Assembly: GCF_902729405.1 (NCBI RefSeq)
Contig: NZ_LR746496.1
Coordinates: 1,178,001-1,242,000 of the forward strand
Source: Acididesulfobacillus acetoxydans
GTDB lineage: Bacteria; Bacillota; Desulfitobacteriia; Desulfitobacteriales; Desulfitobacteriaceae
Reading direction: 5' to 3'
DNA length: 64,000 nucleotides
Below are positions 8,931 to 50,457 of this stretch, piece after piece. Under the pieces are notes generated by a model. The model did no database searches, was not told where the DNA came from, and saw nothing but the letters and a program-made list of their open reading frames with translations. Position 1 is the first letter of the stretch; the number at the start of each line of letters is the position of its first letter. Both the position numbers and the translations under genes were made by a program.

Positions 8931-9377
8931 ATGCCCAGACCTGTTAAACTGCGCAAAGTGGAATATGAGTATAACAACAAGTATTTTGCACCGTGTTCGA
9001 AAGGGAACTGTCGGCAAAGCGATGAAGTGCAGCTCAACATAGAAGAGTTGGAGGCAATGCGGCTCAAAGACATCCAAAAATACACGCAAGAGGAATGCGC
9101 GGGGAAAATGAACGTTTCGCGCCAGACCTTCCAAAACATCTTAGATCGCGCCAGGCAGAAAGTGACGGCGGCCCTGATCGAGGAAAGAGCGATTGCGGTG
9201 GGCGGTGGGAATTACACTAAAAATATATGCAGCCTCGTTTGCCGTTCCTGCGGCAACGAAATGTTGGCTCCCTTCGAACAACAAGACAAAAAATGCCGCC
9301 ACTGCGGGTCGGAAAATGTCGCCTGCCAAAAAGAAGAATGCAACACTCAAGCCGGGTGCGAACTGAGCATTCGCTGA
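8931..9377 (+). CDS. DUF134 (UPF0251) family DNA-binding protein, paralog 1
   Basis: The protein opens with MPRPVKLRKVE, the family hallmark. A sigma-70 region 4-like helix-turn-helix follows (EECAGKMNVSRQTFQNIL, about residues 53-70), then a C-terminal zinc ribbon with two CxxC pairs (CRSCG...CRHCG). Family members are presumed transcription regulators found next to MinD-type ATPases and NifX-like proteins in anaerobes; their ligand is unknown. ATG 8931 is chosen for its position after TTTAGGAGAG. It is one of three paralogs in this window and closely resembles the one at 10087. Confidence 0.88.
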   Translation: MPRPVKLRKVEYEYNNKYFAPCSKGNCRQSDEVQLNIEELEAMRLKDIQKYTQEECAGKMNVSRQTFQNILDRARQKVTAALIEERAIAVGGGNYTKNICSLVCRSCGNEMLAPFEQQDKKCRHCGSENVACQKEECNTQAGCELSIR

Positions 9378-9391
9378 AATCCGGCGGAGGT

Positions 9392-9730
9392 TCACTTTGA
9401 CGCTTGCAGCGTTGCGGAAGCTTCGGAAAAGGATAAGTTCGGTTGACAACAATACTGGTTCACTCTCATTAAGGTCTCGATCGATTTATTTAAGTTTTCC
9501 CGCCGCTTATCTCCGTTGTCCAGGGCATCGAGCAGACATGTTTCGGCATAGTGCTGGGCCACAAAGACGGATATTTTGAGCATGGAGGCGCGGATCGCGT
9601 CGAGTTGCAAGAGAATTTCTTCACAGGATTTGTCTTCCTCGATCATATTCATGACGGCCGCTACGTGTCCTTTAGCCACCTTCAAACGGCTGAGGATCTC
9701 TCTGTTTTGTAGCGGGTTGCTGTTTTTCAT
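9392..9730 (-). CDS. CsoR/FrmR-family repressor, CstR-like persulfide-sensor type
   Basis: A 112-residue all-helical DUF156 protein. Cys36 and Cys65 occupy exactly the positions of the two metal-ligand cysteines of M. tuberculosis CsoR, but the position of its His61 ligand is Tyr61 here (a His lies one residue earlier, at 60). Losing that His while keeping both cysteines is how CstR persulfide sensors differ from copper sensors, so a role in sensing reactive sulfur is plausible. Two further cysteines (NQYCCQ) lie near the C terminus. It is convergent with the DUF134 gene, 14 bases away. Metal or formaldehyde sensing cannot be excluded. Confidence 0.85.
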   Translation of the reverse strand: MKNSNPLQNREILSRLKVAKGHVAAVMNMIEEDKSCEEILLQLDAIRASMLKISVFVAQHYAETCLLDALDNGDKRRENLNKSIETLMRVNQYCCQPNLSFSEASATLQASK

Positions 9731-10086
9731 GTCATCTCCAGCTTTCTCACGGTTTTTGCGGACTGCGGTCTCTCACGGCGCTCTCTTAATAATAGCATAC
9801 GCCATAAACGCGGTCTCTGTCAATGAGGAAAATGAGGATATAAAGGCCGGACGTGGGTGCAGCTTCGGTGTCTGCCCTCACCCAATGCGAACGCCAAGGG
9901 AACCCAAGGGAACCCAAGGGGCTGGAAGATGTGATAGAAGGGGAAATGTGTGGTATAATAAGGCCACAGGCGCGGACCAGAAGCCCAGAGTCTCTCTGGG
10001 TGCGCTGATGCCCACAATTATCCCCCGGGGAAGCGGGCTTTTCCTTCCAAGGGTGAAATGCGGGCTGCTGAGTTGGGGGTGATTTT
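9731..10086. other. Spacer with short tandem repeats and possible promoter
   Basis: The decamer AACCCAAGGG is repeated at about 9901-9920. A -10 hexamer TATAAT (9954-9959) lies between TGTGG (9949-9953) and CCACA (9964-9968), an imperfect inverted repeat that might be an operator for the next gene; its -35 is weak. No coding frame here is convincing. Confidence 0.45.
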
Positions 10087-10575
10087 GTGTCGAGGCCGGT
10101 CAAGTGGAGAAAGGTCGAGTATGTTCCCCAGAACGTGTTTTTCGCGCCCTGTCCGAAAAGGGGATGCGAAAGATGGGAAGAGATCAACCTCAAAGTTGAA
10201 GAACTCGAAGCGATGAGGCTTAAGGATGTTCTTGGCCTGACGCAAGAAGAATGTGCGGAGAGGATGCAGATTTCGCGCCAGACTTTTCAAAACATCATTG
10301 ATGAGGCTCGCAAAAAGGTAACCACAGCTCTGCTGGAAAACAAAGCCATCTCGGTGGGAGGTGGAAACTATACCAAAAATGTCTGCCATTTGACTTGCCT
10401 GGAGTGCGGGGGCGAGACAAGTGCTCCCTACGAAGAACGTGGTGTGAAGTGTAAACACTGTGGGTCGGAGAAATTGGTTTGCACGAAGAAATTAGGTTGT
10501 AATATCAGGTGTCAGAGCGAAGAAAGTGTTCAAACTGAAGAAAGTGTTCAAATTGAAGAAAGTGAAAATAATTGA
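10087..10575 (+). CDS. DUF134 (UPF0251) family DNA-binding protein, paralog 2
   Basis: Very similar to the protein at 8931: a basic N terminus (SRPVKWRKVE), an HTH (EECAERMQISRQTFQNII), and a zinc ribbon with CLECG and CKHCG. Starts with GTG behind GGGGGTGA. The tail contains an 18-base tandem repeat (10519-10564) encoding ESVQTE/ESVQIE, a recent slip-type expansion. Together with paralog 1 and the DUF134 at 12226 it suggests a regulator family that has multiplied locally. Confidence 0.88.
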   Translation: MSRPVKWRKVEYVPQNVFFAPCPKRGCERWEEINLKVEELEAMRLKDVLGLTQEECAERMQISRQTFQNIIDEARKKVTTALLENKAISVGGGNYTKNVCHLTCLECGGETSAPYEERGVKCKHCGSEKLVCTKKLGCNIRCQSEESVQTEESVQIEESENN

Positions 10576-10636
10576 GTCCTCAGTTGGGAAGCGAACAGGC
10601 TTCAAGTCTTTTCCGCCGGCGAAGGTTCTGAGACAT

Positions 10637-10664
10637 CCGGGTACTCCTGCCCGGGTGCTTTTTT
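10637..10664 (+). terminator. Rho-independent terminator after DUF134 paralog 2
   Basis: CCGGG (10637-10641) pairs with CCCGG (10650-10654), followed by GTGC and six T (10659-10664). The stem is short but correctly placed 60 bases after the stop. Confidence 0.6.
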
Positions 10665-10701
10665 ATCACTCCATCGCAAAGCATTAGTCCCGCGCGGGAT
10701 A

Positions 10702-10770
10702 AGAAAACTTGCGTCCGCTCGATTCAACCGATCGCGCACTCGAGCGATCGCAGCACCGGCCAAGTTTTCT
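10702..10770. repeat. Nested inverted repeat (hairpin element)
   Basis: The outer arms AGAAAACTTG (10702-10711) and CAAGTTTTCT (10761-10770) are perfect. Inside them CGCTCGA (10716-10722) pairs with TCGAGCG (10740-10746), and the palindrome CGATCG occurs twice. Such nesting is unlikely by chance and suggests a structured RNA or a small palindromic element. Confidence 0.6.
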
Positions 10771-10932
10771 CACGAAAATGTGTCGCGGGTCCCAGTGAAC
10801 TCTGCTTTGTGAACGATAGTTCATGATTGTTTCTATAGTGCGTCAGGCATGACGATTGGCGAGACGATGGCGGCGAAAGTGTCTGGCCGTTATGTGGGTT
10901 ATGAATTCGGGAAGGAAATGGGCGAATAGTTA

Positions 10933-10980
10933 TTGACATATGCCAGAAATAGATTATAATACAAGTAGTTGGCATATGCC
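10933..10980 (+). promoter_or_regulatory. Sigma-A promoter with CATATG-type operator (copy 1)
   Basis: TTGACA (10933-10938), a 16-base spacer and TATAAT (10955-10960) form a near-perfect promoter. CATATGCC[A/T]GAAAT is present twice, once overlapping the -35 and once at 10973, where it sits in the palindrome GGCATATGCC (10971-10980) around the start of transcription. Two more promoters (11908, 15428) share the TTGACATA[C/T]G start and a downstream palindrome. Confidence 0.8.
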
Positions 10981-11111
10981 TGAAATGACAGGGAAGTGAG
11001 CGGGCAGTCTTTGGGGGATGGTGTTTGGGCCCTTATGTTTCTGCAAAAGTGGGGCGTTACGGACGCGACTGAAGTTGTTTCAATCTTTTGACGGGAAAGG
11101 GGGAGTCAGGG

Positions 11112-11456
11112 ATGCAAAAGGCTATGGTAAGTTTTTATCATTGCCCGGTGAGCATGGAACGCGTGGAAGAAGAATTGGGGTCAATCGAGTATTGTCAGAT
11201 TGAACCGGAGTGGCGGCAGGAAATGGTACTTACGAGTCTTTTCACCAATTACTTCAACCAGTATCTGACATTGGGGGAAGGGGTTTCCGGAGAAGATACC
11301 CGCGCCTACTGGGACCGGGAAACAGGAAGGTTATATGGTTTCATCACGGAGCCCGGGGAAGATGGGACTCGAACGGCTGGAATTATTTCTAAAGCGGTAT
11401 TTCAAAAGATGACGGAGACATATTGTGACCGGAATATTGACAAAATAATAGCATGA
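11112..11456 (+). CDS. Hypothetical protein behind regulated promoter
   Basis: A 114-residue soluble acidic protein that I do not recognise. It contains three cysteines (in YHCPV, EYCQI and TYCDR) and no membrane segment. ATG 11112 has AAAGGGGGAG at ideal distance. It lies about 150 bases downstream of the strong promoter at 10933 and shares that promoter type with the DUF5320 and NifX-like units, so it is probably part of the same regulon. No enzymatic motif is visible. Confidence 0.65.
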   Translation: MQKAMVSFYHCPVSMERVEEELGSIEYCQIEPEWRQEMVLTSLFTNYFNQYLTLGEGVSGEDTRAYWDRETGRLYGFITEPGEDGTRTAGIISKAVFQKMTETYCDRNIDKIIA

Positions 11457-11541
11457 GCGGGAGCCGGATCGGTTGCCCCCCAGTCGATGGACTTCATCGC
11501 GAACAAAGGCGCTGAAAGCAGGGTATCCTTTCTGGAAAAGG

Positions 11542-11566
11542 AGACGGCTGGGCAGCGTCTTCTTTC
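11542..11566 (+). terminator. Probable terminator after hypothetical gene
   Basis: AGACG...CGTCT with an inner CTG/CAG extension forms a hairpin (11542-11560), followed by TCTTTC. The T tract is imperfect. Confidence 0.45.
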
Positions 11567-11675
11567 GTCCTTCTCCGGGAGGTATCAAAATGTGACTCGG
11601 CCGCCGGCAGTATCAAAGTTTTAGAGAGAGCAGCGGGTAGAAGTCTTTGGAGAGAGCCGGGGGCAGAAATTTATC

Positions 11676-11791
11676 CAAAGCGTCAGACTCCCACTTCTAC
11701 AAGTGGGAGTGGGTCCCACGTACCCAGCTTCGGCGGGGGTAGAGTGCCCCACCGAAGTCCCGATGTTCAGCTTAAGCTGAACGAGTTCACT
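11676..11791 (+). mobile_element. Orphan IS200/IS605-type right end (omegaRNA-like), copy A
   Basis: It begins near CGTCAGACTCCCAC. A hairpin ACTCCCACTTC/AAGTGGGAGT is followed by a second GC-rich hairpin, then GATGTTCAGCTTAAGCTGAA (an 8-base palindromic stem) and the end GAGTTCACT. This order of hairpins and the TTCAC end are typical of IS605-group right ends that overlap the 3' part of tnpB and encode its guide RNA scaffold. No tnpA or tnpB remains beside it. The same end recurs at 22161, 23925, 31089 and 41935. Confidence 0.65.
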
Positions 11792-11907
11792 GGAGAAGCG
11801 GGGGGAAGAAGTTGCGGTGGCCAGAAGGAGATCGTGTGTCCTCCGGAAAAAGTCAAAGAGAACCGGAACAGGCAGTAAATTTCTCCGAAAACAGCCCGCT
11901 CTCCTTA

Positions 11908-11963
11908 TTGACATACGTTCATAAAGAGACTACACTGATGTATAGAAAATGAACATTTGTTCA
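11908..11963 (+). promoter_or_regulatory. Promoter with palindromic operator (copy 2)
   Basis: TTGACA (11908-11913), a 17-base spacer and TACACT (11931-11936). The -35 continues as TTGACATACGTTCA, nearly identical to the promoter at 15428. Downstream lies the perfect palindrome TGAACA-TT-TGTTCA (11950-11963). The gene start is 22 bases further, behind AAAGGAGG. Confidence 0.78.
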
Positions 11964-11984
11964 AAATAAAGGAGGTTGTTTTGT

Positions 11985-12233
11985 ATGCCACGTGGCGATC
12001 ATACGGGGCCCAACGGAGAAGGTCCGAAAACCGGCAGGGGAGCCGGTTTGTGCGGCGGTCAGAACGTTCCCGGATACGCCAGCGCGCCGGGAAGAATGGG
12101 TGGGCTGGGGAGAAGCGGGATTCCCGGGCAAAACGCCGGGTCCGGGCAGGGAAGCGGTGGCCCAGGCTTTACCGGCCGGGCTCCGGTGAACCGAGGAGGG
12201 GGCCGGGGCAGACGGGCGGGATGGCATGCCTAG
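11985..12233 (+). CDS. DUF5320-like Gly/Pro-rich small protein
   Basis: An 82-residue protein beginning MPRGDHTGPNGEGPKTGRGAG, the signature of DUF5320 proteins found beside NifX-like and MinD-type genes in anaerobes. The remainder is rich in Gly, Pro and Arg and is probably disordered; it has one Cys (GLCGG). The start ATG 11985 has a perfect AAAGGAGG. Its stop overlaps the next DUF134 gene by eight bases, so the two are translationally coupled. Function unknown. Confidence 0.8.
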   Translation: MPRGDHTGPNGEGPKTGRGAGLCGGQNVPGYASAPGRMGGLGRSGIPGQNAGSGQGSGGPGFTGRAPVNRGGGRGRRAGWHA

Positions 12234-12840
12234 ACCGCAAAAGCAGCGTTGGGTAGCGGGGCGGCCCTGTGCGACACATTTTAAACCGCAGGGCGTTCCC
12301 TGGTGTGAGTTAGATGAAGTGGTTTTGACCATTGAAGAGTTTGAGGCGATCCGTTTAAAAGACGCGGAAGGTTTCGAACAAGAAGAGTGTGCCCGCCAGA
12401 TGCGAATATCCCGCCCCACGTTTGTCCGAATTATTCAAAGTGCTCACAAGAAAGTCGCTCTGGCCTTGACCGAGGGGAAAGGGTTACGCATCGAGGGTGG
12501 GCATCACAAGTTTTACGGAGAAAAGGGTCTTTGTCGTAAGAACGGGGCTTGTCGCCATGAACGGCCGGGGGGCGGAGAGCGGGGTGCGACTGAAGCGGAC
12601 CGGGCCGTTCCGGTGAATGAGGTGGCCTTGGACCCGGGAGCCGGTCCGGCGCCCCAGGCCGATCTTGACGCAAAGGTGGATCCCAGGACAGTGGGGGATT
12701 CCGGCGTGAGGACGGATGGAAGAGCGAAAGCAGAACCAGCCGCGAAGACTCGGGAGTCTTCTGAGATGGATGGCACGAAATCAAGCCCGGCGGGGACAAG
12801 AGAAACCGCGGGCAGCAGGAACGATTTAGGGAAGAGCTAG
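12226..12840 (+). CDS. DUF134 family DNA-binding protein with long disordered tail, paralog 3
   Basis: The N-terminal 100 residues carry the MPRPQKQRW start and an HTH (EECARQMRISRPTFVRII). In place of the zinc ribbon of paralogs 1 and 2 there is only a short Cys pair (LCRKNGAC), followed by an 80-residue tail rich in Ala, Gly, Asp and Glu. It overlaps the DUF5320-like gene and heads the unit that contains the NifX-like and MinD-type genes, which makes it the best candidate to bind the shared operators upstream. That link is inferred. Confidence 0.85.
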   Translation: MPRPQKQRWVAGRPCATHFKPQGVPWCELDEVVLTIEEFEAIRLKDAEGFEQEECARQMRISRPTFVRIIQSAHKKVALALTEGKGLRIEGGHHKFYGEKGLCRKNGACRHERPGGGERGATEADRAVPVNEVALDPGAGPAPQADLDAKVDPRTVGDSGVRTDGRAKAEPAAKTRESSEMDGTKSSPAGTRETAGSRNDLGKS

Positions 12841-12856
12841 GAAAGCGGGTGGTTAG

Positions 12857-13228
12857 ATGCGGATGGCGGTGTCAGTAGGTAAAAAGGACCTGAGTGGCTT
12901 AGTTGACGACCGGTTTGGACGTTGTCCTTACTTTATGCTGTGCGATTCCGAAGATGTCGAGGGGACGGCGGAATGGAAAGACAATCCGGCTCTGGCAAGC
13001 ACGGGTGGTGCGGGGATCGCGGCCGGTGAGTTCCTGGACCGGGAAAAGGTAAAAGTTCTGATTACCGGAAGTTTGGGTCCGAATGCCCTGCGTGTGGTTC
13101 AGGCCTCGGGGGTCAGCGCTTTCTCAGCCCCCGGATCCATGACCGTGCTGGAAAGCGTTCGAGCCTGGGCAACGGGGACTTTGCCTGCGATTACCGCAGC
13201 GGGTCAGGCTCACGCCGGAGAGCGCTGA
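12857..13228 (+). CDS. NifX/NifB-C-terminal-like (dinitrogenase Fe-Mo cofactor domain) protein 1
   Basis: A 123-residue protein of the NifX/NafY-like fold: an N-terminal MAVSVGKKDLSGLVDDRFGRCPYF and the conserved VKVLITGSLGPNA region. Proteins of this family bind iron-sulfur or Fe-Mo clusters; those outside nitrogenase clusters have no settled role. No nitrogenase genes are seen, so this is the stand-alone anaerobe type. It lies 16 bases after DUF134 paralog 3 and before the MinD-type ATPases. Confidence 0.85.
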   Translation: MRMAVSVGKKDLSGLVDDRFGRCPYFMLCDSEDVEGTAEWKDNPALASTGGAGIAAGEFLDREKVKVLITGSLGPNALRVVQASGVSAFSAPGSMTVLESVRAWATGTLPAITAAGQAHAGER

Positions 13229-13424
13229 GCCTGACCTCGGACGGAGGACGGCTTGCTCCAGCCGCGGTTCGCGGCAGGGGCCGCAAGATTCGCGGATGAT
13301 GGCGGCGGAAGAGAAAAGAAGCCTCTGTCGAGACGGATGACGGTCGGAGAATGAGGCGGAAGCGCCCGCGGGCAATGGAGATTGGGGTGTGTTCCATGAA
13401 TGGCTTAGTTCAAGAGGTGGCAAG

Positions 13425-14291
13425 ATGAGAATAGGGGTTCTCAGCGGCAAGGGCGGAACCGGGAAAACGACAGTGGCCGTGAATCTGGCGCTCAGTTTCG
13501 CCCAAACCCATAAAACACAGTACCTTGATTATGACGTGGAGGAGCCCAACGGCTTTTTGTTCCTGCAGCCGGAGGTCAAAGAACAGGTTAGTGTTCCGTT
13601 GCTCTACCCCGAAATCAGTGACAAGTGCACGCTCTGCGGGGAATGCAGTAAGGCCTGCCAATATCACGCCCTGGCCCAGGTCAGCCAAAAGGTGCTGGTT
13701 TTTCCCGAGCTCTGTCACGGTTGTGGCACTTGCTCTATTGTGTGCCGGTATGGGGCGGTCCTTGAGCGCGAACGGCCGTTGGGCCTGGTTGAGTTAGGTT
13801 ATCACGGGAACCTGCGCTGTGTTCAGGGTATTCTGCGGGAAGGGGAAGCCTTAGCGGTCCCGGTGATCCAGGCGGTCCGTTCCCGGGCGGAAGAAAGGAG
13901 CACGGAAGGTTTCGAGGTAACCGTCGCCGATTGCCCGCCAGGCAGTTCCTGCAGTGTGATTCACTCGGTTGAGGCCAGTGATCTGGCGCTTTTGGTTACG
14001 GAGCCCACGGCTTTTGGATTGCACGACCTAAAAATTGCGGTGCGGTTGGTGCGTGAGTTAGGGTTGCGCCACGGGGTGGTCTTAAACAAGGATGATGGGA
14101 GCAGATTGATCCGTGATTATTGTGGGGCGGAAGATATACCGCTTATGGCCGCTATTCCCTTTGACATCGGCATTGCCAAGACCTATTCCAAAGGGCTTCC
14201 ATTGCTTGAGGACAGCCGCTGGGCGGTTCTGTTTGCAGACCTGAGGGACAAGCTGGTGAGAGAGGTGCCAGTGCAGAAGCATGAGGACTGA
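13425..14291 (+). CDS. MinD/Mrp-type ATPase with inserted two-cluster ferredoxin, copy 1
   Basis: A 288-residue P-loop ATPase. The deviant Walker A GKGGTGKTT lies at residues 8-16. Two [4Fe-4S] sets, CTLCGECSKAC and CHGCGTCSIVC, are inserted at about 65-110, and the Walker B/switch region is VADCPPGSSCSV. Such proteins always occur in pairs beside NifX-like proteins; Mrp/Nbp35 relatives carry iron-sulfur clusters, so cluster assembly or transfer is a reasonable guess. Start ATG 13425 has AGAGGTGG upstream. The 160-base gap before it shows no gene. Confidence 0.9.
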   Translation: MRIGVLSGKGGTGKTTVAVNLALSFAQTHKTQYLDYDVEEPNGFLFLQPEVKEQVSVPLLYPEISDKCTLCGECSKACQYHALAQVSQKVLVFPELCHGCGTCSIVCRYGAVLERERPLGLVELGYHGNLRCVQGILREGEALAVPVIQAVRSRAEERSTEGFEVTVADCPPGSSCSVIHSVEASDLALLVTEPTAFGLHDLKIAVRLVRELGLRHGVVLNKDDGSRLIRDYCGAEDIPLMAAIPFDIGIAKTYSKGLPLLEDSRWAVLFADLRDKLVREVPVQKHED

Positions 14292-14348
14292 AATGAGGGA
14301 AATCACGGGCGGGATGTCGGGATAATAGAGGAAGGCTCGGGGGTGTTT

Positions 14349-15323
14349 ATGAAGCAAATTGCCATTATATCGGGCAAAGGGGGAACCGGGAAAACAACGA
14401 TTGCGGCTGCTTTCACAGAACTCGCTTCCCGTAAAATCGTGGCGGACTGTGACGTTGAGGCGCCGAATCTGCATCTGCTTTTGGAACACCGTATCCGGCA
14501 GGAAAGCCTCTTTCAAGGGAACCGTTGTGCCCACATTGATCCCGAGCAATGCATTTCTTGCGGCAAGTGCCGGGATGTCTGCCGCTATCAGGCAGTCGAA
14601 GAGCTGGGCAAGGGGGAGGCCGCCGTTGTACGGTCGCGGAACGGGGCGCAAAATGCGGATAAGGAAAGTCGACACCTCATAGCTCGAGCGACAGCTCAGG
14701 CGGATTCCGGGGTGGGACCACTGTTCCGGGTTGACCCGAAGCGCTGTGAAGGTTGTGCCGCCTGTGTCTATGCCTGTCCGGCCGGGGCGGTGGAGCTCAG
14801 GTTGGAGGACACGGGGAAAATATTTCTTTCGGACAGCTCGGCAGGTGAGTTTGCTCATGCGGAACTCTTTCTGGCGGCGGACGGCTCAGGCAAACTGGTA
14901 TCCGAAGTACGTCGTCTCGCTCAGCAGGAAGCGCTTGGCGATGATAAACTGGTTATTATCGACGGTTCGCCGGGGATTGGTTGTGTGGTTATCTCCACGA
15001 TCACAGGCTGCCAGGCAGTGCTGATTGTGACTGAACCGACTCAGTCGGGCAAACATGATCTGGCAAGGGTGCTGAAGATCACGCAGCATTTTCATGTTCC
15101 GGCTCTTGTCGCCATTAACAAATGGGATCTCAATCCGGATATGACGATAGAAATAGAAAAACTGTGCCTGGCCGATGGAGTTGAGGTGGCGGGCAAGATA
15201 CCCTTTGATACGACGGTTCCGCAGGCCATCGCCGCGGCCCAAGCGATCACCCGTTTTGATTCGCCGGCTTCAGCCGCCATTCGCAAACTTTGGGGAAGGG
15301 TGCAAGAGGAGCTTGTGGTCTAA
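14349..15323 (+). CDS. MinD/Mrp-type ATPase with inserted ferredoxin, copy 2
   Basis: A paralog of the preceding gene (324 residues) with Walker A GKGGTGKTT, cluster sets CISCGKCRDVC and CEGCAACVYAC, and IIDGSPGIGC in the switch region. A roughly 30-residue insertion separates the two clusters compared with copy 1. The pair probably forms a heterodimer, as is common for these tandem ATPases. ATG 14349 is preferred to the GTG six bases earlier. Confidence 0.9.
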   Translation: MKQIAIISGKGGTGKTTIAAAFTELASRKIVADCDVEAPNLHLLLEHRIRQESLFQGNRCAHIDPEQCISCGKCRDVCRYQAVEELGKGEAAVVRSRNGAQNADKESRHLIARATAQADSGVGPLFRVDPKRCEGCAACVYACPAGAVELRLEDTGKIFLSDSSAGEFAHAELFLAADGSGKLVSEVRRLAQQEALGDDKLVIIDGSPGIGCVVISTITGCQAVLIVTEPTQSGKHDLARVLKITQHFHVPALVAINKWDLNPDMTIEIEKLCLADGVEVAGKIPFDTTVPQAIAAAQAITRFDSPASAAIRKLWGRVQEELVV

Positions 15324-15427
15324 ACTCTAATTCATGAGGAGAGCACCGTTCCGGGCCTGAAAGCCGAAGGACTGGGGCTTGGGAACGAAGAATTGGGTGA
15401 AGGCGGCGGCAAGCGCAGGAGTTTTAA

Positions 15428-15477
15428 TTGACATACGTTCAGAAAGGCCTATAATGAAAGAATAGGTGGCGTATGCC
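15428..15477 (+). promoter_or_regulatory. Sigma-A promoter with palindromic operator (copy 3)
   Basis: TTGACA (15428-15433), a 16-base spacer and TATAAT (15450-15455), then GGCGTATGCC (15468-15477), almost identical to GGCATATGCC at 10971. The first 12 bases after the -35 start (TTGACATACGTTCA) match the promoter at 11908. Confidence 0.8.
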
Positions 15478-15513
15478 AGTAAAAAAAAATAAACGGAAAT
15501 TCAGGAGGTTTTA

Positions 15514-15870
15514 ATGATGTCAAAAAGAATCGCGATTCCGAGTAACGGGGAATTGTTGGATGCCCATTTTGGCCGGGCTCAGGCTTTTACGGTATTTGAA
15601 GTTGACGGCAATCAAGCCCGGCAGGTAGAGGTTTTAAGTGCTGCGGGATTGGAACACCAACATGAAGGTCTGGCAAGTATGTTCAAACGCAACGGTATAG
15701 ATGTTTTGGTCTGCGGGGGGATCGGCGGAGGGATGATTGATAGTCTCAATTATGCCGGCCTGGACCTCGTCACCGGAGCGTCCGGCCTGACGAAAGATGT
15801 TGCCCAGTCATACGCGGCGGGAACCTTGGTCAGCACCGGTTCGGTCTGTCAGGAACATCATCACCATTAA
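15514..15870 (+). CDS. NifX-like protein 2 with His-rich C terminus
   Basis: A 118-residue NifX-fold protein (KRIAIPSNGELLDAHFGRAQAF; DVLVCGGIGGGM). It ends in CQEHHHH, a probable metal-binding tail. It has its own regulated promoter 60 bases upstream and AGGAGG before the ATG. Only about 35% of residues seem shared with the copy at 12857, so the two are not recent duplicates. Likely part of the same iron-sulfur-related system. Confidence 0.88.
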   Translation: MMSKRIAIPSNGELLDAHFGRAQAFTVFEVDGNQARQVEVLSAAGLEHQHEGLASMFKRNGIDVLVCGGIGGGMIDSLNYAGLDLVTGASGLTKDVAQSYAAGTLVSTGSVCQEHHHH

Positions 15871-16232: not shown

Positions 16233-17402
16233 ATGAAGAAGGTAACCGTGCTGGGCGGGGGGATAGCCGGGGTCGAAGCGGCGATTCACTTAAGAAAGAA
16301 AAACTTCGAAGTGACCGTGATTTCTAATCGAGATTATGTTTATATTTACCCGATTTCCATCTGGGTGCCCACTGGAGAAAAGACTCTCCAAGATGTCAGT
16401 GTGCCGCTGGCGAAACTGGCGGGGAAACATGGTTTCCGGGTGATTGTGGATGAAGTGGTAAGTATAAGGGCCGCGGAAGGGACCGTTGTCCTCAAAACTT
16501 GGGGAGATTACAGAGAATTCGATTATTTGGTGGTTGCGCTCGGTGCGAGCAAACTCAAACCACAGGGGGCGGCACACACCTTGTCCATTTGCGGCGAGCC
16601 CGGGGAAGCGGCCATGCTCCATGAACGTTTGGAAACGTTGGTTCAGCGCGGACAGGGCCAAATTGCCATCGGGTTCGGCGGCAATCCCCAAGATCAATCT
16701 GCTGTTCGGGGTGGTCCGGCTTTTGAAGTCATGTTCAATATCGATCATTTTTTGCGCCGCAGAAGATTGCGCCAAAGTTTTGACCTGACGTTTTTCGCGC
16801 CGATGGAAAGTCCGGGCGCCAGAATGGGTACAAAAGCAGTGAAAAAAATGGGGCAGATGTTCGAGACACTGGGCATCAGTACGCGTTTTGGCCGGAAAAT
16901 TGTGCGGTTTGAGCCCGATGGGGTCGTCTTTGAAGATGGCTCCGTCCTGGCAAGTGACTTGACGATGTTCATCCCGGCAGGGGCGGGTCAGAAAGTTCTC
17001 CGGGATTCGGGTCTTCCTTTATCAACAGCTGGATTTATTGAAATCGACGACTATTGTCAAGTCCCGGGTTTTGACCACATCTACGCGATAGGTGACTCAG
17101 CCGCTATGAGGGGACCCGAATGGAAGGCTAAACAGGGTCACCTGGCCGAAGTGATGGCTCGCAATGTTGCCCACAATATCGCGGTCCGCGAGTCGGGCGG
17201 GCAAAATTTCCTGGGCTATGAGGAGCATGTCGGCATCCTATGCGTCATGGACAGCGGCAACGGGGCCGCCTATGTCGAGCGTGATGCCCGGCACGAGAAG
17301 ATGATTCTCATGCCGTTCTTCGGGCATTGGCTTAAAAAGAGCTGGGGCGTGTATTATAAGCTCTCCAAGATGGATAAGATTCCCCGCTTGCCCGGTATGT
17401 AG
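16233..17402 (+). CDS. FAD-dependent oxidoreductase, sulfide:quinone oxidoreductase-like
   Basis: The 389-residue protein starts with the FAD-binding VTVLGGGIAGVEAAIHL and has the second nucleotide-type signature YAIGDSAAM near residue 290, both typical of SQR and type II NADH dehydrogenases. The C terminus is amphipathic with aromatic residues (HWLKKSWGVYYKLSKM), as in monotopic membrane SQRs. Cysteines lie at SICGE, DYCQV and GILCVM; the last two are near the positions of the SQR redox pair, but the match is not certain. AGAGAG precedes the ATG. In a sulfur-reducing cell it could return sulfide electrons to quinone or act on polysulfide. Confidence 0.78.
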   Translation: MKKVTVLGGGIAGVEAAIHLRKKNFEVTVISNRDYVYIYPISIWVPTGEKTLQDVSVPLAKLAGKHGFRVIVDEVVSIRAAEGTVVLKTWGDYREFDYLVVALGASKLKPQGAAHTLSICGEPGEAAMLHERLETLVQRGQGQIAIGFGGNPQDQSAVRGGPAFEVMFNIDHFLRRRRLRQSFDLTFFAPMESPGARMGTKAVKKMGQMFETLGISTRFGRKIVRFEPDGVVFEDGSVLASDLTMFIPAGAGQKVLRDSGLPLSTAGFIEIDDYCQVPGFDHIYAIGDSAAMRGPEWKAKQGHLAEVMARNVAHNIAVRESGGQNFLGYEEHVGILCVMDSGNGAAYVERDARHEKMILMPFFGHWLKKSWGVYYKLSKMDKIPRLPGM

Positions 17403-21627: not shown

Positions 21628-22230
21628 GGGTTTCACTCCTTATCTTGATCTCTTCTTTGGTCCATTCTGCTTTGGCAAAGAGTTTTGCATAGGGATCCCA
21701 AAGCAAATTTGTTGGCAGTGGGTACAGGCGGGGAGTCCCGGATGCGCAAAATATCTTGCGTTATGGCACCCAGCCTCCAAAACGCCCAAGCGGGGTCCGG
21801 AAGGCATGAGGAGTGTCCGAAAACATTGTCGGTTGGCCCGCCGCCCGCCTGAATAGGGAGGCTGGCAAAAGATGCCTGTCCCCGGCGCGAAATTTATGTT
21901 AAAATTGAATCTTGATAATGGGGAAGAGGCCTTTGTGGCACATAGATTGCACCGAAAAAAGTCCAGACGCGTGGCGCGGTGCCTTTCCGACACCCGGTTT
22001 CAAGGGATTGCGCTTAGGCTCTGACCTATTGACCCCAAAGTCCCTCGCCCAGGCGGAACGGAAGACACAGGGTGTCTTTCTTCGAGAAGGAGGTGATGAG
22101 ACCGAAGTTGTCAAAATTGCAGAAATCTTGAAAGCAACTGACCCGCTAAAACATGCACAAAGTGAACTCGTTCAACTAAAGATGAATGGCAGTCCAGGGG
22201 AAATAATAGCTTGAGGAAGGTGGTCACATC
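21628..22230. other. 603-base divergent intergenic region
   Basis: It must hold the promoters of the GalT-like and permease genes; no strong pair of hexamers stands out. It contains one transposon-end relic on the minus strand (22161-22190). An open frame at 21912-22214 runs through the relic and is not called. Confidence 0.5.
22161..22190 (-). mobile_element. IS200/IS605-type right-end relic, copy D
   Basis: On the minus strand it reads CATCTTTAGTTGAACGAG then TTCACT, the same terminal 25 bases as copies B and C. Only the last hairpin remains. It faces away from the permease gene, opposite to copy C. Confidence 0.6.
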
Positions 22231-23805
22231 ATGAAACCGGTTGGACTGAAACGGGACCTCTCTTTATTGGATCTTACTTTCGTCGGTGTCGGAGGCATCA
22301 TTGGCTCGGGCTGGCTGTTGGCCTCCCAAGTCGCCGCGTCCGTCGCCGGGCCCTCAGCCATCGTGTCCTGGCTCATCGGTGGTATCGCCATTATCTTGGT
22401 CGCTCTGGTCTATGCCGAATTAGCCGGGGCCCTTCCGGAAGCGGGAGGAACCGTCCGTTACCCCCAGTATTCCCACGGCAGTTTGGTCAGCTTTATCATT
22501 GGCTGGGGCGGTTGGCTGAGTTGGGTGGCCACTCCGCCGGCGGAGGCCGAAGCCATTACCCAATATGCCAACAATTTTGCCCACATCCTTTACAACGATA
22601 AAACCGGGCTTTTGACTCTGAGCGGTCTTATCGTTTCCATTCTCTTGACGGTGCTTTTCTTTGTCCTTAACTATTTCGGGGTAAAACTTTTTGCCAAGGT
22701 CAACACCACGGTTACCTGGATCAAGTTTGTCATTCCCGTGGCTACGGCTATCTTGATCATGGTTTTCGGCTTTCACGGCGGAAATTTTGTCGCCCATGGC
22801 GGCTTTTTCCCCGACGGCTTTTCCGCCACCCTAATGGCCATAGGAAGTTCCGGGATTATCTTTTCCCTGCAGGGTTTCCGCCAAGCCGTCGAATTGGCCG
22901 GCGAAGCGCGCAACCCGAAACGGGACCTTCCTTTGGCCGTCATCTTGACGGTACTTATCTGTGTCGCTATCTATGTCTTGTTGGAGATTGCTTTTGTCGG
23001 GGCGCTTTCTCCGGCCATGTTGGCCAAAGGCTGGCATTCACTGAATCTGGACGCCCCCTTTGCCGAACTGGCGGTAGCCGTCAACCTGGGCTGGCTGGCG
23101 ATCATTTTACAAGCGGATGCCATGGTTTCCCCGGCAGGCACGGGTTTGGTTTACACAGCCTCGACAGCCCGGGGTCTTTTGGCCATGGCTGAGAACGGTT
23201 ATCTGCCTAAGGCCTTTCTCAAGCTCCATCCGAAATGGAGGGTGCCGATCAATGCCCTCATCTTCAACATGATTATCGGTATCTTAACTTTACTGCCATT
23301 TTCCTCCTGGAGCAAGATTATATCATTTGTTTCGGTTACCGGCGTAATTAGCTACCTCCTGGGTCCGGTGGCAGCCAGCGTGCTGCGGCGGACGGCCCCG
23401 GAAATTGAGCGCCCGGTGAAGATAGGGGGTCTGTCCGTCGTATCTCCCCTGGCGTTTATTGTGGCTGGCCTTATCGTCTACTGGACCGGATGGCCCAATA
23501 CCGGCTATGCACTGGGAGCGGTTGTGGTCGGCCTCTTGATCTATTTTTATTACTACAGCAAAGGTAACTTCCGGGCCCGCCATCTCCGTGCCGGGCTCTG
23601 GCTGGCAGTTTATCTTCTGTTCATTATCGTCTGGTCGTATGTGGGCAGCAAGTCTTTTGGCGGCAAGAACTGGGTCGGGGCCCCTTGGGATACGATCATT
23701 TTTGCCATCGTCAGTCTGGGGGCTTTTGCCTGGGGCATGCGTTCCGGCTATCGCACGGAAGAAATTGCCGAAACCAGCCGCCAAATTGCCAATGGTGAAT
23801 ATTAA
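22231..23805 (+). CDS. APC-family amino acid permease
   Basis: A 524-residue membrane protein with about twelve to fourteen helices. The N-terminal VGVGGIIGSGWLLAS is the APC signature of helix 1, where the unwound Gly-rich region binds the substrate amine. The substrate cannot be read, but the sequence resembles the amino acid/polyamine transporters near YhfM/AspP-like proteins. GAGGAAGGTGG precedes ATG 22231. It is bracketed by two inverted transposon-end relics (22161-22190 and 23925-23956), so it may have travelled as cargo. A terminator follows. Confidence 0.9.
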   Translation: MKPVGLKRDLSLLDLTFVGVGGIIGSGWLLASQVAASVAGPSAIVSWLIGGIAIILVALVYAELAGALPEAGGTVRYPQYSHGSLVSFIIGWGGWLSWVATPPAEAEAITQYANNFAHILYNDKTGLLTLSGLIVSILLTVLFFVLNYFGVKLFAKVNTTVTWIKFVIPVATAILIMVFGFHGGNFVAHGGFFPDGFSATLMAIGSSGIIFSLQGFRQAVELAGEARNPKRDLPLAVILTVLICVAIYVLLEIAFVGALSPAMLAKGWHSLNLDAPFAELAVAVNLGWLAIILQADAMVSPAGTGLVYTASTARGLLAMAENGYLPKAFLKLHPKWRVPINALIFNMIIGILTLLPFSSWSKIISFVSVTGVISYLLGPVAASVLRRTAPEIERPVKIGGLSVVSPLAFIVAGLIVYWTGWPNTGYALGAVVVGLLIYFYYYSKGNFRARHLRAGLWLAVYLLFIIVWSYVGSKSFGGKNWVGAPWDTIIFAIVSLGAFAWGMRSGYRTEEIAETSRQIANGEY

Positions 23806-50124: not shown

Positions 50125-50457
50125 TTGGATGAGCCGGAGGGTTCCTGCCCGGTCTGCCATGAGGGCGAAGGGGACGGTGAACGCAGGAGTCACCATGATG
50201 AGAGGACGATCCGGGAACTGGTGAATCGCATGAACCGGATCGAGGGCCAGGTGCGCGGAATCAGGGGTATGATTGAGCGGCACGTCTACTGTGATGATGT
50301 TCTTAATCAAATTGCCTCGGCCCAGGCGGCTTTGCACGGGGTTGCCAAATTACTGCTGGAAAAGCACATGAAGTCTTGTGTTAAGGAACAACTGCGCTCC
50401 GGTGATGACGAGGTCGTGGATGAGGTCTTGAAGACGATATTCAGGCTTATAAAGTAG
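50125..50457 (+). CDS. csoR: CsoR copper-sensing repressor
   Basis: A 110-residue helical protein. The copper ligands Cys56, His81 and Cys85 keep the exact CsoR spacing (25 and 4), unlike the protein at 9392. An N-terminal extension SCPVCHEGEGDGERRSHH adds possible metal ligands. Start TTG 50125 has AAAGGTGG upstream; ATG is not available in frame. It precedes copA-copZ in the same direction with an operator upstream, so copper should induce the whole unit. Confidence 0.92.
   Translation: MDEPEGSCPVCHEGEGDGERRSHHDERTIRELVNRMNRIEGQVRGIRGMIERHVYCDDVLNQIASAQAALHGVAKLLLEKHMKSCVKEQLRSGDDEVVDEVLKTIFRLIK

Follow-up and report, generated by a model that had tools for sequence, protein, structure and literature searches.

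We analysed a window of 64,000 nt from the single-contig, 4.52 Mb genome of Acididesulfobacillus acetoxydans. A gene cluster at positions 8,931-15,870 of this window encodes three DUF134 proteins, two NifX-domain proteins, two MinD-type ATPases with inserted [4Fe-4S] domains and a small DUF5320 protein. The promoters of the cluster carry a repeated near-palindrome centred on CATATG, and across genomes this element is associated with DUF134 genes. We propose that the cluster is an iron-sulfur (Fe-S) handling module of the sort represented by the ORP complex of Desulfovibrio and by IssA of Pyrococcus furiosus, controlled by DUF134 repressors. We put the probability that this reading is right in its main points at roughly 0.6 (0.62), a figure that, like the gradings worded below, expresses our judgement. 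The module falls within a known kind and is not wholly new; the new part is the proposed DUF134 control. No functional study of DUF134, UPF0251, COG1342 or DUF5320 was found in the literature searched, and as far as that literature shows the link between DUF134 and an operator is new.

A paired CATATG palindrome at the cluster promoters

The near-palindrome, TTGACATATGYYcA, overlaps the -35 box of perfect sigma70 promoters and is followed by a second copy about 38 bp downstream. Searching for TTGRCATAYGYYNNAAA with at most one mismatch gave four sites in the window, all of them inside the cluster, against 0.09 expected. The best pair consists of a first copy (TTGACATATGCCAGAAA, 10933-10949, plus strand) overlapping the -35 of a promoter that matches the sigma70 consensus at 12 of 12 positions, and a partner (TTGGCATATGCCTGAAA, 10969-10985, plus strand) downstream of the -10. 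The first of these is identical in the genus mate CEB3 (G001, locus L053), which has the same cluster; the next matches to the cluster are Desulfosporosinus records. Before the DUF5320 gene, one copy (TTGACATACGTTCATAA, 11908-11924, plus strand) stands at the -35 and the other (TGAACATTTGTTCA, 11950-11963, plus strand) is a perfect palindrome. Both are conserved in CEB3 as judged by a pattern scan, the MAFFT alignment of this promoter being misplaced by an indel. The pair further downstream, also conserved in CEB3, comprises a copy (TTGACATACGTTCAGAA, 15428-15444, plus strand) over the -35 of another 12/12 consensus promoter and a copy that fits the exact palindrome core pattern (TGGCGTATGCCA, 15467-15478, plus strand).

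The promoters at 10933 and 15428 both have a normal spacer of 16 bp, and within the cluster the second palindrome lies 36-42 bp downstream of the -35 word. CEB3 retains the paired sites despite diverged flanks. A scan with the core also found an operator-like sequence (TAGCATACGCCA, 9793-9804, minus strand) over the -10 of the promoter of a CsoR-family gene (TTGACA-18-TATGCT), again conserved in CEB3. These repeated operators were absent from the original prediction, as was the CsoR-family gene itself.

The operator accompanies DUF134 across genomes

Across 74 genomes of the order, with DUF134 present in 55 and NifX-domain genes in 65, there are 76 exact operator sites, compared with about 9 for the reversed pattern. 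Nearly half of the exact sites (37 of 76, where 0.16% would be expected) have a DUF134 gene within 2 kb, and 48 have a DUF134 or NifX gene at that distance. In 32 gene-site pairs the DUF134 gene follows its site within less than 700 bp, several of them at 57-70 bp, and sites also precede DUF134 genes that stand in isolation. The promoter geometry recurs as well: in the loci examined, a -10 follows at 15-19 bp in 129 of 151 distinct sites versus 22 at control positions, and in the same set the distance to the second copy peaks at 38-39 bp.

The same core emerged when no motif was preset. Enrichment of 8-mers ranked CATATGTC/CATATGCC at the top both in loci of the order and in other DUF134-bearing genomes, and these 8-mers are absent from loci of genomes without DUF134; in DUF134-bearing Chromatiaceae the enriched sequence was ACATATGT. 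RCATATGY occurs upstream in 23 of 27 loci from genomes with DUF134 and in 0 of 21 from genomes without it (Fisher p = 6e-10), a split that none of nine control palindromes showed. Nearly all DUF134-bearing relatives have the operator, and they belong to Firmicutes, Chromatiaceae and one other phylum.

Position and flanks differ among the loci while the core stays. Loci of a second type (type B: DUF134-NifX-Mrp, some with a CsoR-family gene) have one TGRGCATATGCYCA-type site in 15 of 15 cases, about 22 bp before the DUF134 start codon where measured. In Chromatiaceae the sites are CGCACATATGTGCG-like and, in three loci, stand 53 bp ahead of DUF134, and L122 has TGAACATATGTTCA 34 bp before DUF134. 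The flanks vary by DUF134 subfamily and fall into the classes TGACATATGTCA, TGAGCATATGCTCA and CGCACATATGTGCG.

Within the organism's own genome, a 17-mer scan allowing 2 mismatches was noisy (123 matches versus 74 for the control), and we used near-exact or paired sites only. A stricter paired pattern matched at four positions, on both strands for three of these, and gave no match with the control; at 1,748,189 the edge is without TTGACA.

DUF134 as the predicted reader and repressor

Profile searches of the window proteins against Pfam and NCBIfam, with the curated cut-off of 27 bits for DUF134, assign three genes to this family. DUF134a (8931-9377, plus strand; PF02001, 72 bits, with a weak zinc_ribbon_6 match) has a predicted helix-turn-helix (HTH) like that of sigma region 4 and a C-terminal zinc ribbon. 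DUF134b (10087-10575, plus strand; 71 bits) has the same two parts and is 58% identical to DUF134a, and DUF134c (12226-12840, plus strand; 76 bits) overlaps the end of the DUF5320 gene within an operator-preceded operon. An AlphaFold model of DUF134a, built from 64 sequences, has a pLDDT of 79, with values of more than 90 across most of residues 31-80. In structure comparison the modelled HTH resembles sigma region 4 (Z scores of 6-7, up to 7.2), including that of sigmaA and of SigW on -35 DNA, and sigma factors account for most of the 50 matches listed; this is a match of fold only and at middling Z.

DUF134 may share its predicted fold with the sigma-70 region 4/DeoR-type HTH, and its presumed operator contains the -35 hexamer. 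It differs in being a small stand-alone protein with a palindromic site and no match to other sigma regions. Since TTGACATATGTCAA amounts to a pair of inverted -35 boxes, a sigma-region-4-like dimer would be its natural reader. We consider it likely that DUF134 binds the CATATG operator, which agrees with the original prediction that these proteins are regulators.

The sites might instead be read by another factor that travels with the module, either the CsoR-family repressor or an unlinked regulator, in which case DUF134 would be a target and not the binder. CsoR-family genes do recur beside DUF134, and two loci (L022 and L063) have sites and no detected DUF134. Yet most DUF134 loci are without a CsoR gene, some of the DUF134 genes with a site 53-70 bp before them stand alone, and the flanking bases vary with the DUF134 subfamily. 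CsoR-type repressors are moreover known to use a different palindrome, one with G-tracts; when we looked for such operators, one clean TACCCC-N9-GGGGTA site appeared near a YedE operon elsewhere in the genome (L158:4056) and none that was convincing at the cluster. Reading by another factor therefore seems to us very unlikely.

Binding by DUF134 could still serve activation, with the protein acting at the -35 as a sigma-region-4-like recruiter that stabilises polymerase. The resemblance of its HTH to sigma region 4 and the overlap of the site with the -35 of most promoters would suit such a role. However, two of the promoters already match the consensus at 12 of 12 positions with a 16 bp spacer and therefore should need no activation, and both the second copy past the -10 and the type-B sites about 22 bp before the start codon are in places where repressors act. 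We regard activation as distinctly unlikely and hold that DUF134 probably represses.

A conserved NifX-MinD core

The profile matches and translations bear out the identities and places that had been claimed for the DUF134, NifX-domain and ATPase genes, and likewise the inclusion of DUF5320 in the set. NifXa (12857-13228, plus strand; Nitro_FeMo-Co, PF02579, 62.6 bits) ends at 123 aa and NifXb (15514-15870, plus strand; PF02579, 69.6 bits), which has a histidine-rich end, at 118 aa. MinDa (13425-14291, plus strand) and MinDb (14349-15323, plus strand) are MinD/ParA-type ATPases, each with a CbiA/ParA P-loop (Walker A GKGGTGKT) and two Fer4 matches corresponding to two inserted CxxCxxCxxxC motifs. 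The DUF5320 gene (PF17253, 32.2 bits) was scanned as 11976-12233 and probably starts at an ATG at 11985 (11985-12233, plus strand); its product of about 82 aa (85 aa as scanned) is basic and rich in glycine and arginine, with 28 glycines and an isoelectric point (pI) of 11.7.

This set is linked in relatives far beyond chance. Among the NifX matches listed, a NifX gene stands no more than 5 kb from at least 74 of the order's 111 DUF134 genes, in line with the recurrence in anaerobes stated in the original prediction. The MinD pair is kept in 35 of 41 loci of the order, with DUF134 within 6 kb in 29 of those 35. Loci retrieved with MinDb from other genera and phyla have the MinD pair in 62 of 73 cases, and near these 62 pairs are a NifX gene in 60, DUF5320 in 42 and DUF134 in 13. 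The core is accordingly NifX-MinD-MinD(-NifX); it crosses phyla and occurs with or without DUF134. The earlier label of a DUF134 system is thus too strict, and DUF134, a frequent companion that is not universal, looks like an exchangeable regulator of the cassette. DUF5320-like open reading frames (ORFs; n = 84) have a median pI of 10.0 and 20% glycine. In three relatives (L083, L062 and L106) the NifX domain is fused to a glycine-rich or DUF5320 segment; the L083 fusion has the DUF5320 N-terminal motif proper, and those in L062 and L106 may match through low complexity.

Likeness to the ORP complex and IssA

The core corresponds to the gene content of a published system. In Desulfovibrio, Orp3 and Orp4 are related to each other and each contain two [4Fe-4S] motifs, and Orp8 is related to orange protein and binds a Mo-Cu sulfide cluster; MrpORP, an NBP35-type ATPase fused to a Di-Nase domain, passes Fe-S clusters to Orp3-Orp4-Orp8 in vitro, and the genes are arranged as two divergent operons that depend on sigma54 and have a cognate regulator (PMC6345978). 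The cluster of A. acetoxydans, likewise from an anaerobe, has two MinD-type ATPases with two such motifs each and NifX/Di-Nase partners resembling Orp5 and Orp8, among which NifXb shows a weak match to the ORP structure 2wfb (E 9e-4). The two systems differ in that our cluster has extra DUF5320 and CsoR-family genes and sigma70-type promoters with CATATG operators and DUF134, in place of sigma54 and its cognate regulator.

The module could accordingly be the Firmicute ORP complex with its published function, that of a Mo-Cu cluster protein with a role in cell division. Besides the MinD-ferredoxin pair and the NifX proteins, which recall Orp3/4/5/8, and the 2wfb match, MrpORP-like genes lie within the clusters of relatives. 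However, there is no MrpORP fusion here, the best score in the genome for NF041136 (337 bits, from the ATPase part only) staying below the cut-off of 450; sigma54-like sites in the window occur at chance level only; NifXb scores higher against 1t3v, 1o13 and 2yx6 in the Protein Data Bank (PDB) than against 2wfb; and the predicted targets described below speak for sulfur and Fe-S. For ORP, too, a role in cell division is putative (PMC6345978). We think identity of function with ORP unlikely.

The second likeness is to IssA of P. furiosus, a NifX-domain (IPR003731) protein with a basic C-terminal tail of about 70 residues rich in glycine and aromatic residues, which stores thioferrate, reconstitutes ferredoxin in vitro and is expressed in connection with sulfur and iron (PMC5524996). 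A NifX domain and a basic glycine-rich segment are common to both, the latter being DUF5320 here and the DUF5320-NifX fusions in relatives. In A. acetoxydans, however, the NifX proteins are without a tail and DUF5320 is a separate gene; for IssA, no MinD pair has been described. By analogy, DUF5320 may stand in for the IssA tail.

A further use for the NifX proteins would be the organism's own nitrogenase cofactor pathway, with which they share a domain, and the genome does have nifE, nifN, nifX, nifB and nifV-like genes. However, the genome yielded neither nifD nor nifK, nifE is truncated at its N-terminus, the nif genes lie 2 Mb away with a NifX of their own, and the cassette crosses phyla with no nif genes recognised in its neighbourhoods, where no systematic search for them was made. 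We find this role extremely improbable. The claim that nitrogenase genes are absent thus stands for the window and fails genome-wide, where nifH-E-N-X-B-V-like genes are present without nifD or nifK. The nif operon itself (L163:98-6436, at 3.27 Mb) runs nifH, nifE, nifN, nifX, nifB-like and nifV-like; its nifE stands immediately after nifH and is about 50 residues short at the N-terminus, which looks like the result of a deletion.

We think it on the whole likely that the module handles Fe-S or metal-sulfide. The theme of cluster assembly and delivery in the original prediction, to which we add storage, appears right. Its statement that the task is not established holds for the set that includes DUF134, for which no published function was found; it had missed that the core is the published gene content of the ORP complex and that there is a likeness to IssA.

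A candidate regulon and its possible signal

Operator sites elsewhere in the genome suggest a regulon concerned with iron-sulfur and sulfur traffic. Site pairs or clusters occur 2 kb before the window (L158), upstream of a cytochrome-like gene together with two YeeE/YedE (Sulf_transp) genes, and at L161 upstream of a CoA-disulfide-reductase-like flavoprotein with a rhodanese domain. An operator-preceded operon at 2.33 Mb (L159) encodes DUF5320, an IscU-like scaffold, a further DUF134, an Mrp ATPase and a cation-efflux (CDF) protein fused to a NifX domain, and at 4.32 Mb (L008) a similar set is divergent to a second NifX-MinD-MinD. The DUF5320-IscU-DUF134-Mrp-CDF/NifX operon is thus present twice, with the Mrp at 4.32 Mb split over two frames. 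In relatives, sites stand before a ferredoxin, an Etf with a ferredoxin domain, an HdrD-like protein and DUF5320-NifX, names that were assigned partly by eye.

Three further observations belong here. An Mrp fragment at 3.19 Mb (L160:3286-3582) has an operator pair. In genome G055 (L172:3672-6666) an exact operator is followed by a 227-aa protein that by eye resembles heavy-metal chelation proteins (DUF364-like) and then by a SelD-like gene. Before the cytochrome/YedE operon, a clean CsoR-type palindrome (TACCCCTTGGCCGAAGGGGTA, L158:4056-4076) adjoins the DUF134-type operators, and this promoter looks as if it were shared by two repressors.

The CsoR-family gene of the cluster (9392-9730, minus strand; PF02583, 60 bits) bears on the signal. 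In alignment with PDB structures a tyrosine replaces the copper-ligand histidine of its product, as it also does in the linked copies of relatives, and both cysteines at the CsoR positions are present in this protein and its linked homologues. From its sequence the protein does not have the copper-sensing Cys-His-Cys ligand set, and the tyrosine fits a putative sulfane-sulfur sensor of the CstR type. The function of repressors of this type is known from YrkD/CstR (PMC9918477), with which the protein shares the CsoR fold, the two cysteines and nearby sulfur genes. Because of this CstR-like repressor and the shared targets YedE and CoA-disulfide reductase-rhodanese, we infer that the signal may be Fe-S status or sulfide/sulfane sulfur. 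A second CsoR-family gene in the window (50125-50457) keeps the copper-ligand histidine.

Other features of the window

The protein encoded at 11112-11456 (plus strand), behind the best operator pair, had been called unrecognised, and we can only agree. It has no Pfam or NCBIfam match, a PDB sequence search was empty, and an AlphaFold model made from two sequences has a pLDDT of 40 and no usable fold. It is restricted to the genus, being 86% identical in the other searched genome of the genus and found nowhere else in the order. A sulfide:quinone-reductase-like flavoprotein (16233-17402, plus strand; PF07992), whose best NCBIfam match, SQR_III_seleno, is under its cut-off, is possibly the last gene of the unit. 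A perfect sigma54-type sequence, TGGCACATAGATTGCA, lies at 21936-21951, upstream of an ORF at 22231.

Discussion

Computation establishes the gene content, its conserved linkage, the operator with its position and its association with DUF134, and the HTH fold as a prediction. The mechanism we propose from this is as follows. The MinD-type ATPases with their two [4Fe-4S] inserts and the NifX proteins would together make up a complex in which Fe-S or thiometallate units are taken in, kept and handed on, while ATP drives the exchange of partners. DUF5320, small, basic and rich in glycine and arginine, would act in trans as a counter-ion or scaffold, a part that falls to the fused tail in IssA. 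Dimeric DUF134 repressors would bind the CATATG-centred palindrome through their sigma-region-4-like HTH, with one copy covering the -35 and the next lying about 38 bp further downstream, beyond the -10. Occupied in this way, the strong consensus promoters would be closed to RNA polymerase. One of the blocked promoters would be that of the DUF134c operon, making the control autoregulatory. The regulon would extend to IscU, Mrp, CDF-NifX, YedE and CoA-disulfide reductase-rhodanese, that is, to iron-sulfur and sulfur trafficking.

Several observations weigh against this proposal. HTHs like that of sigma region 4 are common, and a Z score of 6-7 is middling. No clear site precedes the genes for DUF134a and DUF134b, nor DUF134 at the loci L072 and L119. 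Conversely, L022 (a genome 78% complete) and L063 (a metagenome-assembled genome) have sites where DUF134 was not found, and six genomes of the order have an exact site without DUF134; some of the latter are probably chance matches, since the reversed control gives about 9. The genomes without DUF134 used for comparison belong mostly to other phyla and are higher in G+C, which makes ancestry a confounder, although the CATATG core is retained in two separate lineages, Chromatiaceae and L122. Finally, the NifX-MinD cassette is common without DUF134, and neither NifXa nor NifXb has an IssA-like tail.

A wider generalisation is one that we offer tentatively and that may well prove too broad. DUF134 (UPF0251/COG1342) proteins might be bacterial, and perhaps archaeal, sigma-region-4-like repressors that recognise inverted, -35-like CATATG palindromes, with their own cysteines or zinc ribbon serving to detect Fe-S or sulfane-sulfur status. 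They would control a common anaerobic module for storing and delivering metal-sulfide, made up of MinD-ferredoxin ATPases, NifX and the glycine-rich DUF5320.

DUF134 is a large family for which we found no function in the literature searched, and the predicted operator, promoter geometry and regulon make a role for it directly testable. The link would also join the ORP complex, thioferrate storage of the IssA type and the MinD-ferredoxin ATPases into one regulated module that reaches far beyond Desulfovibrio and Pyrococcus.

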